A stretch of DNA of 25,330 nt, from IMG/VR virus record IMGVR_UViG_3300043409_001165, positions 1-25,330 of that record; one strand, given 5' to 3'. Made by a program: the position numbers and the translations under genes. Origin of the DNA: a virus. Shown here piece by piece: positions 7,872-19,509 of the stretch (positions are counted from its first letter, which is position 1; each line of letters begins with the position of its first letter). Below the pieces are notes generated by a model. It was not told the DNA's origin, made no database searches, and saw only the letters and a list, made by a program, of their open reading frames with translations.

Positions 7872-7900
7872 ATTATACTTCATTCACAGCTAATTGTCAA
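7872..7900 (-). promoter_or_regulatory. perfect sigma70 promoter for the CobS-like gene
   Basis: Minus strand: TTGACA (7895-7900), 17-base spacer, TATAAT (7872-7877), all 12 positions consensus. It sits between the CobT-like stop and the CobS-like ATG, giving a leader of about 28 bases. It shares CCTTGACAATTA with the promoters at 10076-10104 and 18383-18411. Confidence 0.9.
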
Positions 7901-14435: not shown

Positions 14436-15499
14436 TCATCTAATTCCATAGACAAAGATTCATTATATAACGAATGCATTAATTTGTCAAGGTCTTTTTT
14501 ATCAACATTAGTTTCTAAGTTTCCTACATATTTGGACAAAATTGTCAAAGTGTCTTCGGCTTCATTGGCTAAATCGGTTGTATCTATATCATTCATATTT
14601 CTATGATCATCAACAATTGTAACATCGGATGGTGCTGCTTCGTAAATTTTATTTACAAATAAATCAAACCAATACGGATTAGTCTTATTCTGAACAATAA
14701 CTTTAACATATGAAGATTTTACATAGTCGAAATTTTGACTAAGAAGTTTATCCAGTGTTTGTTCAGTATCATCATACCATACCTTATAAAACATCTTATT
14801 TGTATTTTCGATAAATTCTAGTTCTCTAGTTTCTGTATCCCATATATGAAATCCGCGAGGATCGCCATGATCCGACCAAGTTATCTCATAAGGCGTTCCT
14901 ACATATCGTATGTTTCCGCTTTCTGATTTTCTATGGAAGTGTCCAGAAAATACAGTATCAAATTTATCAAATTTAGAAGCATCGAATCCATCGTGAGAGG
15001 GCATTCCCCTATACATCTCAAAACCTTTTATTTCTAAATGCCCAAATAAAATTTGAGCCTTAGTCGTTTTCATAATTTCCATACACTCTTCATAATTCGA
15101 ACTATTGATCCATGGCATCATCATCAATTTACATCCATCAATTTCTATTTCTTTAGGACCTGCGTATGCGTGAAGAAAATTATTATCGGAAAACAATTCA
15201 CCCATTGAATTTATAGAATTAGTATTTCTAAACGGGACGTCGTGGTTTCCGATAAGAACGTGTAGAGTAACATTATTGTCTCTATGTTTATCGACAAACG
15301 ATTTGAGTTTGTTTAGAGTTAAATAATTGATAAACTTTCTACGATCGACAATATCACCAAGCTGAATGACTTGATTAATTCCTCGTTTCTCTAATTCTGG
15401 AAAATAAATTTCCTCGAAAAATTTATCGAAATAAGAAAGAAATTCTTGACTATCATTCCTTGCACCAAAATGTAAATCACCTAATATAGCTATTTTCAT
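14429..15499 (-). CDS. 47: recombination nuclease subunit gp47 (Mre11/SbcD-like)
   Basis: A 356-residue metallophosphoesterase, the nuclease half of the gp46/47 complex. Metal-binding motifs: GDLHFG (7-12), GDIVDRR (48-54), GNHD (84-87), a later GHLE and GHFHRK (the GHxH type). The length matches T4 gp47 (339). The ATG overlaps the gene 55 stop by four bases (ATGA). The last 20 codons contain a consensus sigma70 promoter for gene 46. Confidence 0.95.
   Translation of the reverse strand: MKIAILGDLHFGARNDSQEFLSYFDKFFEEIYFPELEKRGINQVIQLGDIVDRRKFINYLTLNKLKSFVDKHRDNNVTLHVLIGNHDVPFRNTNSINSMGELFSDNNFLHAYAGPKEIEIDGCKLMMMPWINSSNYEECMEIMKTTKAQILFGHLEIKGFEMYRGMPSHDGFDASKFDKFDTVFSGHFHRKSESGNIRYVGTPYEITWSDHGDPRGFHIWDTETRELEFIENTNKMFYKVWYDDTEQTLDKLLSQNFDYVKSSYVKVIVQNKTNPYWFDLFVNKIYEAAPSDVTIVDDHRNMNDIDTTDLANEAEDTLTILSKYVGNLETNVDKKDLDKLMHSLYNESLSMELDEC
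14462..14490 (-). promoter_or_regulatory. perfect sigma70 promoter within gene 47 for gene 46
   Basis: Minus strand: TTGACA (14485-14490), 17 bases, TATAAT (14462-14467), all 12 positions consensus and preceded by ACC. It lies in codons for DLDKLMHSLYN of gp47 and 27 bases before the gene 46 ATG, which gives a leader of about 20 bases. Confidence 0.8.
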
Positions 15500-17883: not shown

Positions 17884-18318
17884 TTATCCACCGAGGGTTA
17901 GCCGACGCCAGTCGATTGCATTTTTAATTTGATATCCTCTAGAATTAATAGACTTCATAATATCCTCAAGCGCCTGAACTTTTATTTCGAAAAGAGATAT
18001 CTTAGCATCGATAGAAATTATCAACTCATCTAAATCTACATTGATCATGATTTCATTCTTAAGAGTTTTTCCTAAGAATTGTTCGCGACCAAGATCAGCC
18101 AACTCTTGCTGAGTTGCAGATCCAGAATAATAATTCCGCAACTTTGAAATGATTTGTTTTTTATGACTTTGATATCCGCGAAGGGCTCTTCGATCATCGG
18201 ATAATAATGTTATATATTTCGCATGTAGGTTTGGTATGCGAGTCGACTCAGCGTCTAGATTTAAATCATCTAGAACAGTATCGTTTTTCCACTCAGTTAA
18301 AATTTCATCAATTTTCAT
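17884..18318 (-). CDS. uvsY: UvsY recombination mediator
   Basis: A 144-residue protein matching UvsY, which loads UvsX recombinase on gp32-covered single-stranded DNA. The start MKIDEILTEWKNDTVLDD, then STRIPNLHAKYITLL, KLRNYYSGSA, and the conserved end EDIMKSINSRGYQIKNAIDW (residues 118-137) are family signatures; T4 has 137 residues. The ATG at 18318 is chosen; a TTG three codons earlier lies within the promoter -10 box. No RBS is visible, and the predicted transcription start is only a few bases upstream, so the mRNA may be nearly leaderless. The uvsW gene follows directly. Confidence 0.9.
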   Translation of the reverse strand: MKIDEILTEWKNDTVLDDLNLDAESTRIPNLHAKYITLLSDDRRALRGYQSHKKQIISKLRNYYSGSATQQELADLGREQFLGKTLKNEIMINVDLDELIISIDAKISLFEIKVQALEDIMKSINSRGYQIKNAIDWRRLTLGG

Positions 18319-18326
18319 AAGTACCA

Positions 18327-18355
18327 ATTATATAATAAATTGCAAATAAAGTAAA
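18327..18355 (-). promoter_or_regulatory. sigma70 promoter for uvsY
   Basis: Minus strand: TTTACT (18350-18355, 4 of 6), 17 bases, TATAAT (18327-18332, 6 of 6). The -10 box ends nine bases before the uvsY ATG, so the expected start leaves about two untranslated bases. It is back to back with the plus-strand promoter at 18383-18411. Confidence 0.65.
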
Positions 18356-18382
18356 GGCTTATTTTTGGCTTTGAATTATACC

Positions 18383-18411
18383 TTGACAATTATGTAAGTT
18401 CTTGATATAAT
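18383..18411 (+). promoter_or_regulatory. perfect sigma70 promoter on the plus strand
   Basis: Plus strand: TTGACA (18383-18388), 17 bases, TATAAT (18406-18411), all consensus. It shares CCTTGACAATTA with the promoters at 7872-7900 and 10076-10104. It fires into the 3' end of the tail-tube gene, which is on the other strand. No plus-strand gene lies downstream, so the product would be an antisense or small RNA. Confidence 0.75.
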
Positions 18412-18436
18412 ACATGTGTTCCGAAGGGTCATTGTA

Positions 18437-18979
18437 TTAAGAGACTCTCTCGATGACATAGCGTCTATAACTGAAAGTAACAGTGGCTTCGATGTAGTCA
18501 ACATCTGACGCAGTTGTATCGAAAACCAATTCAGTTAGATCAGTAGGAAACATATCGTAGAAAAAGATATTAATTGATGGATTTCTATTACTTGTTTGAA
18601 TATTCAATGTTCCATCAGAAACAAAAGAGGCTGCGCTTCCGATTCGTCTAATCGGACCAGGAGCATTATTAGATAACTCTCTCGTTTGACTAAAATCTTC
18701 TGGATGTCCTAGCCCAACCATCCAGTCATGAATTTCTATATAATTCTTAAAGTCTTCGTCTACCCTAAAAGATATGGGTATTGTAGAGTATTTTAATTTG
18801 TTTCCTGCTCTTGGAATATTTCCGAAAGGAGTTTGAAATTCAATTGCATCGAGTGATATGCTCGGAAGAGAAGCCTTCTGACAAAAATAATTCACATTAG
18901 GCAATTTCTTTATTGAAAAACGAAATCCTAACTGTGATAAGTAATTTAAATTTGTAGGTTGATTTTCAGATACACTCAT
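18437..18979 (-). CDS. tail-tube-like virion protein (gp19 superfamily)
   Basis: A 180-residue protein. LGFRFSIKKLPNVNYFCQKA (residues 17-36), LPSISLDAIEFQTPFGNIPR (38-57), ISFRVDEDFKNYIEIHDWMV (69-88) and the late YIEATVTFSYRRY form the beta pattern of T4-like tail-tube and tube-junction proteins. The same blocks occur in aquatic T4-like phages (from memory). It would build the tail tube or its end. RBS weak (GGA). It lies downstream of the membrane gene and ends in the intergenic region with divergent promoters. The neighbouring plus-strand promoter would transcribe antisense to its 3' end. Confidence 0.7.
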   Translation of the reverse strand: MSVSENQPTNLNYLSQLGFRFSIKKLPNVNYFCQKASLPSISLDAIEFQTPFGNIPRAGNKLKYSTIPISFRVDEDFKNYIEIHDWMVGLGHPEDFSQTRELSNNAPGPIRRIGSAASFVSDGTLNIQTSNRNPSINIFFYDMFPTDLTELVFDTTASDVDYIEATVTFSYRRYVIERVS

Positions 18980-19006
18980 GATTTAGTTTTCCGTTCAAAA
19001 CTATAT

Positions 19007-19402
19007 TTAGTGTTTTTTAACAACCTGTTTTCTACGAACTTTAGGAGTAGCAGGCTTCATTGCTTCGTCTAGATTATTCGCTGCAACTGCAGATGCAATT
19101 TGAACTGCATCTAATTTATTTTGTTCAACTTTGATAAAAACTCTAGCGCACATGCCTAATACACCCCAAGCACAAAATCCAATCATTGCACCTGCTATAG
19201 CATGATACTCAACAGCATTGGACCAATTCATAGTGTCGATCATGAGAGTTGATCCTATGATCGCAGTTCCTGTAGAAATACCACCTCTGATGGTCGCGTC
19301 TAGTAGCGTTGTAGGTTTCATGAACGCCATAACTGCTAAACCTCCAAATAGTCCGCCGAGTGCTGCTGCAATTTTTGCACCAATAAATGTAGTTGCTGGC
19401 AT
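19007..19402 (-). CDS. three-helix membrane protein after gp23
   Basis: A 131-residue protein with three hydrophobic stretches (about residues 9-28, 38-56 and 66-90), rich in Gly and Ala, followed by a helical and finally basic tail (KVRRKQVVKKH). This layout fits a phage inner-membrane protein; a second holin or a superinfection-related protein are possibilities, none supported by a specific motif. RBS AAAAGGA lies five bases before the ATG, directly after a terminator-like hairpin at 19420-19444. No clear late promoter lies between the two hairpins upstream, so expression may need read-through from gene 23. Confidence 0.65.
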   Translation of the reverse strand: MPATTFIGAKIAAALGGLFGGLAVMAFMKPTTLLDATIRGGISTGTAIIGSTLMIDTMNWSNAVEYHAIAGAMIGFCAWGVLGMCARVFIKVEQNKLDAVQIASAVAANNLDEAMKPATPKVRRKQVVKKH

Positions 19403-19419
19403 AGAATTCCTTTTAAAAA

Positions 19420-19444
19420 AATGGGAGTTTACAAGACTCCCATT
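19420..19444 (-). terminator. second hairpin with T-run, just before the membrane gene
   Basis: Perfect 9-bp stem AATGGGAGT/ACTCCCATT with a 7-base loop. On the minus strand it is followed by TTTTTT and then the RBS of the membrane gene. It may be a second terminator after gene 23 or an attenuator in the leader of the membrane gene. Confidence 0.7.
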
Positions 19445-19477
19445 AAATACACTACAATTATAATTATTATACTTTAA

Positions 19478-19509
19478 AAAAAACCCCGGAAGAAACTCCG
19501 GGGTTTTTT
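19478..19509 (-). terminator. strong intrinsic terminator after gene 23
   Basis: AACCCCGGA/TCCGGGGTT stem with loop agaaac (19491-19496), extended by an A-run and a T-run to 13 pairs, on the minus strand ending in TTTTTTTT. It closes the capsid transcript and is bidirectional. Confidence 0.92.

Follow-up and report, generated by a model that had tools for sequence, protein, structure and literature searches.

A promoter cassette of early type directed into late phage genes and its possible role in antisense control

The DNA analysed here, 25,330 nt of a T4-like virus (IMG/VR record IMGVR_UViG_3300043409_001165, positions 1 to 25,330; hereafter the window), carries at 18383-18411 of its plus strand a promoter of the early class which faces into late genes, and related phages bear the same arrangement at a second late operon end. 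The promoter is the core of a short cassette found in several copies, whose sequence, conservation, copy number and orientation were read directly from the DNA and which, on these grounds, is a real, selected and lineage-specific antisense promoter. We estimate a probability of roughly 50% that this early promoter cassette, set backwards at the 3′ ends of late operons, brakes late genes early in infection through antisense transcription.

A perfect promoter against the gene strand

The site matches the sigma70 consensus in 12 of 12 positions (TTGACA at 18383-18388, a 17-nt spacer ending in TGA, TATAAT at 18406-18411), and a first-pass annotation, made from the letters of the window, had given its sequence, coordinates and orientation exactly. 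However, the promoter was treated there as solitary, while it is actually one copy of a multi-copy cassette with the layout CCTTGACAATTA-spacer-TGATATAAT-ACANNTGTTCCGAAGGGTCA. It was also missed that the predicted initial transcribed sequence matches the promoter boxes in its degree of conservation. The elements of the cassette are as follows.

18377-18444, plus strand: promoter cassette of approx. 68 bp, common to the gp16/gp17 junction and an early-region gene of a relative
18383-18388, plus strand: −35 box TTGACA (within CCTTGACAATTA), from the sequence; the extended block 18381-18392 is invariant in seven sequences
18403-18411, plus strand: extended −10, TGATATAAT, from promoter scan and alignment
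18412-18433, plus strand: conserved initial transcribed sequence after the −10; predicted start approx. 18418, from spacing only

No other perfect sigma70 site is present on the plus strand of the window, and the minus strand, which is the gene strand, has four (at 7900, 10104, 10949 and 14490). Chance alone would give 0.007 perfect sites per strand, or 0.0002 with the TGA extension (first-order Markov model of the window). Only this perfect class is informative, since sites with at least 9/12 matches were not in excess over shuffles (49 found vs. 51 expected). Four of the five perfect sites have TTGACAATTA in common, and CC precedes four of the five. Moreover, the site at 18383-18411 (TTGACA-17-TATAAT) shares its extended context with promoters located upstream of early genes. 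Judged by these features, it is a strong promoter of the phage’s own early type, i.e., of the host sigma70 type, for which early activity is predicted.

Relatives in IMG/VR (approx. 86-96% DNA identity over the region) hold the promoter at the same position. Invariant columns, computed over seven sequences, make up 12/12 in the −35 block CTTGACAATTA with its neighbours (18381-18392), 7/9 in the extended −10 and 20/22 in the 22 nt after it; the corresponding values are 4/11 in the spacer, 14/25 between this promoter and that of uvsY, and 61/180 at third codon positions of gp3. This pattern is that of purifying selection on the −35, the −10 and the predicted initial transcribed sequence, without selection on the spacer. 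Nearly all cassette copies have TGATATAAT; TGGTATAAT is found in L108 and AACATAAT in L085 and L086. The latter two have lost the TG and have CATAAT as their −10, so promoter strength varies.

Copies of the cassette in three contexts

Further copies were found starting from the block after the −10, giving 18 IMG/VR stretches in three contexts. At the junction of gp3 and uvsY, the cassette is antisense in eight contigs besides the window; conservation in related phages, which the first-pass annotation had proposed as a check, is thus borne out. At the junction of gp16 and gp17 (both identified by family search), it is again antisense and present in eight contigs, namely in all eight close gp16 relatives found. 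The third context comprises two contigs in which the cassette lies in the early region in sense orientation, upstream of an open reading frame (ORF) of 124 amino acids (PHROG 27048). The encoded protein (L305:3979-4353) belongs to a family which assigns no function, and can be tested as a candidate regulator. In one of the gp16/gp17 contigs, a gene of 102 amino acids (L328:794-1102, PHROG 17776) is inserted next to gp17 and separates it from the cassette, which remains beside gp16; we take its product, by eye, to be HesB/IscA-like. In a collection of bacterial and archaeal genomes, the cassette pattern gave two isolated matches, and a loose scan with the motif TAATACANGTGTTCC yielded, among the matches listed, mostly chance occurrences.

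One relative bears all three copies, two antisense at late genes and one sense. It is represented by two contigs from one sample, G001 (42,239 nt) and G003 (80,241 nt), whose ends meet at window 15354-15381, where 28 nt overlap exactly; from this overlap and their colinear match to the window we infer that they are one phage. In BLAST comparisons, window 18376-18444 matched G001:20387-20318 with 82.9% identity and window 18377-18443 matched G003:60965-61029 with 86.6%, and likeness between the contexts is limited to these approx. 68 bp (83-87%). G001 holds the late module together with uvsY, uvsW and gp55, and G003 starts in gp47 and carries the early genes. Sites with at least 11/12 matches number 0 sense and 3 antisense in G001 vs. 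19 sense and 0 antisense in G003 (Fisher p = 0.0006, and 0.0095 for perfect sites only, the homologous cassette copies not being independent draws). The three antisense sites of G001 are two cassettes and one site with an 18-nt spacer inside gp18. Among the promoters of both contigs, TGATATAAT followed by the shared block occurs in cassettes only; the other perfect promoters of this relative are all without TGATATAAT. Late promoters (TATAAATA/CTAAATA) sit on the gene strand, and the gene for the late sigma factor, gp55, is present; in the window, TATAAATA was counted seven times on the minus and not once on the plus strand.

Genes and signals around the site

All genes of the window with a family match lie on the minus strand, as had been stated before. 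The surroundings of the promoter comprise the following features.

18437-18979, minus strand: gp3 homologue (tail completion/sheath stabiliser), late gene, read antisense; from family matches and synteny
19007-19402, minus strand: ORF of 131 amino acids, second gene read antisense; from the ORF list, family search without significant match
17884-18318, minus strand: uvsY recombination mediator (PHROG 231, E = 1.8e-35)
18327-18355, minus strand: uvsY promoter-like site TTTACT-17-TATAAT, 10/12, back to back with the cassette; 25/29 columns invariant
19004-19010, minus strand: CTAAATA, late-promoter-like motif ahead of gp3
19478-19509, plus strand: 13-bp hairpin between A and T runs, possible bidirectional terminator
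18418-19509, plus strand: predicted antisense RNA, approx. 1.1 kb if ended by the hairpin

The promoter had been described as antisense to a gp19-like tail-tube gene. That the gene is late and opposed in direction is correct, but it matches gp3 of cultured cyanophages and has the gene order gp23-(x)-gp3-uvsY-uvsW. Based on these matches it is gp3 and not gp19, and “tail tube” is merely the family name of PHROG 45, to which it belongs. Correctly noted, too, was the back-to-back arrangement with the conserved uvsY promoter-like site (18355-18327), the two −35 boxes being separated by 27 bases. The −10 of that site (18318-18332 area) ends just 8 nt ahead of the annotated uvsY ATG, so the uvsY mRNA would be nearly leaderless.

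No conserved plus-strand ORF was found downstream of the promoter, in agreement with the first-pass annotation; the sole frame, of 39 amino acids in relatives, is interrupted by a TGA in the window. A short plus-strand peptide was rejected as this frame is broken and overlaps gp3 codons. Two hairpins with T runs lie at 19420-19509, between gp23 and the next late gene. At the position of the hairpin 19478-19509, G-U changes in L085 and L086 preserve minus-strand pairing, and this hairpin is therefore probably kept by selection for minus-strand termination after gp23.

Backward sigma70 sites were also seen elsewhere. Sites with 11-12/12 matches lie immediately upstream of gp55, or of whichever gene takes its place, in three of the four cultured T4-like phages examined (Syn33, L375:30187(−); HTVC008M, L376:35296(−); DLP6, L378:20516(−)) and in some IMG/VR contigs (L064:5340(−), L071:3704(−), L072:5337(−)); in Syn33, the opposed −35 boxes overlap. 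In another lineage, 12/12 antisense sites lie within the uvsY coding sequence (L064, L065, L067, L069 and L072 near 3326(−), L071 at 1695(−)).

A possible brake on late genes

At both gp3/uvsY and gp16/gp17, the promoter is antisense to structural genes and has no ORF of its own. Because the phage has its early and late genes on one strand, transcripts from early promoters are at real risk of running on into late genes. As to activity, timing and effect, we propose that the host housekeeping sigma factor (sigma70) would fire the cassette early in infection. The resulting RNA would cover gp3 and the ORF of 131 amino acids and may stop at the hairpin 19478-19509, while the sister copy at gp16/gp17 would transcribe against gp16-gp13. 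Pairing of the RNAs or collision of polymerases could then lower expression of late structural genes by early read-through. Once gp55 takes over with its TATAAATA/CTAAATA promoters, the early promoters would shut down and nothing would oppose the build-up of late mRNA. An early antisense RNA keeping late mRNA low had been suggested in the first-pass annotation; as a prediction this is still the best reading, and it is strengthened by the second antisense copy at gp16/gp17 and by the way in which sites of the late module are distributed over the strands. The other suggestion, a small regulatory RNA in the sense of a compact structured molecule, failed. Leaders of 24-26 nt fold with −2.6 to −5.1 kcal/mol (z of +0.3 to −1.4 vs. 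shuffles) and those of 64-66 nt with z of +1.8 to −1.5, which gives no support for a stem-loop, and a search of Rfam found no match; a structured small RNA was rejected on these grounds.

Several observations weigh against a role as an antisense brake. With its third copy sense and ahead of a gene, the cassette does not serve antisense use alone. The strong conservation of the predicted initial transcribed sequence is common to this sense copy, and antisense pairing, which needs no fixed sequence, does not account for it. The sequence downstream of the gp16 copy showed no terminator for antisense transcripts, and the RNA of this copy may thus be long or end otherwise. Of the antisense sites in the late module, that at G001:23187 (11/12) is no cassette and may be due to chance; without it, two are left, which are homologous and hence not fully independent. 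Further, L008 (68% identity in uvsY) is without the cassette at gp3/uvsY, and in distant relatives antisense sites are absent from gp3/uvsY and gp16/gp17. The exception is the more distant L087 (gp3 55%), where a 12/12 antisense site of its own forms a back-to-back pair with a uvsY promoter (L087:3540-3650) and lacks the leader block. Judging from these absences, the cassette is dispensable for the wider family. A more far-reaching version, in which a dedicated multi-copy cassette forms an antisense regulon that holds two late operons down early and is tied by its leader to one early gene, appears unlikely to us.

The conserved leader would be explained in part by an operator, by a leader acting in trans on two late spacers, or by an element for shuffling. 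As for the last, a short repeat with an early promoter could aid recombination of modules at insertion hot spots, the antisense firing being incidental. We consider this unlikely, even though three unrelated sites in one phage share homology over approx. 68 bp only, one copy is sense and ahead of a gene, cultured relatives have insertion hot spots at both late junctions, and L328 has a gene inserted between cassette and gp17. The gene inserted there is not driven by the cassette, however, and a stem-loop or terminator within the cassette has no support. Moreover, all copies at both late sites keep their orientation and their promoter, the elements of which are selected, and an inert patch of homology needs neither. 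A set of co-regulated promoters, in which the downstream block would be an operator or leader for joint switching by a phage factor, or would pair in trans with the gp16-gp17 and gp3-uvsY spacers, the main product perhaps being sense, is a less probable solution still. It could draw on the fact that ACANNTGTTCCGAAGGGTCA is common to all copies and absent from other early promoters, and that the full-length complement of the block lies in two late sense-strand spacers, but no palindrome, stable RNA structure, Rfam match or regulator was found. A further trans target of the leader was rejected because, beyond the cassette sites, its complement matches the early module in 9-mers only, which is the chance level.

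Two other explanations start from the position of the cassette. Its RNA might form an R-loop that primes leading-strand synthesis, as at the T4 origin oriF (uvsY) or at oriE, for which an early-mode promoter seems to be required (PMC3016281). The cassette adjoins uvsY, the position of oriF, a similarity which is positional; no ORF follows, and an R-loop could depend on a conserved sequence at the start of the transcript. We regard an origin as very unlikely nonetheless, as no A+T-rich unwinding element is consistently found downstream of four cassette copies: the G+C content of the next approx. 150 nt is 36% at gp3, 39% at the gp3 copy of the relative, 29% at gp16 and 39% at the sense copy (window mean 36%, standard deviation 6%). 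GC skew weakens over 18-21 kb and then recovers without a lasting switch, one copy drives a gene, and the promoter at 18383-18411 faces away from uvsY. Least probable is a pac-like or recombination box, in which the small terminase would recognise the repeat at the 3′ ends of gp16 and gp3 and the likeness to a promoter would be a side effect. A repeat does lie at the 3′ end of gene 16, with a positional parallel in T4 (PMC9958956, PMC3012670), yet nearly every copy retains a consensus promoter with 17-nt spacing despite drift of the spacer, and the third copy is in the early region, ahead of a gene with a start codon. Taken together, an origin and a pac box find parallels in T4 as regards position, yet no support in base composition, and would leave the promoter unexplained.

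If the antisense brake does operate, it would explain how a phage with early and late genes on a single strand bars early read-through from its late operons. Most of what is known on antisense control in virulent phages comes from RNA-seq and lacks defined promoters, and a conserved cassette defined by its sequence makes such control testable, with two loci, one motif and predictions on timing. In the literature looked through, no useful maps of cyanophage transcription starts were found.

Comparison with known systems

PeSL elements are reportedly mobile regulatory cassettes of T4-like phages (Arbiol, 2010; Comeau, 2014; see PMC4503421). They resemble the present cassette in being short, repeated early-promoter elements at shuffled T4-like junctions; here, too, the promoter was found at several junctions. 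The late junctions are insertion sites in cultured relatives and a gene is inserted beside the cassette in L328; the cassette may flank exchanged modules. They would differ in that no stem-loop or terminator is supported here and that the promoter, at either late site, is directed into late genes, with the inserted or following gene behind it. We did not apply the PeSL label, as the folding tests gave no support for an attached stem-loop or terminator.

T4 oriF, or ori(uvsY), likewise has a promoter beside uvsY (PMC3016281). However, in T4 this is a MotA middle promoter combined with an A+T-rich unwinding element, whereas the promoter found here is of early type, faces away from uvsY and has no consistent A+T-rich element. 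With the putative pac sites in T4 genes 16 and 19 (PMC3012670, PMC9958956), the cassette has in common that it is repeated, once at the 3′ end of gene 16 and once at another late gene. In contrast to them, its second copy is at gp3, a third lies in the early region and the sequence is a promoter.

The closest parallel in terms of regulation is PAK_P3, a virulent phage with antisense transcription over its structural region, which was proposed to stop early leaks of late genes; 15 of its 20 antisense RNAs lie in that region and they are stronger early (PMC4933390). Those RNAs were measured and are nearly all intragenic, whereas the ones proposed here are predicted from their promoters, which lie at gene junctions, and would arise from one cassette with a conserved transcribed start. 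Early antisense RNA over structural genes is thus known from PAK_P3, and the phage analysed here may represent a variant of it, based on a shared multi-copy promoter cassette with a conserved leader.
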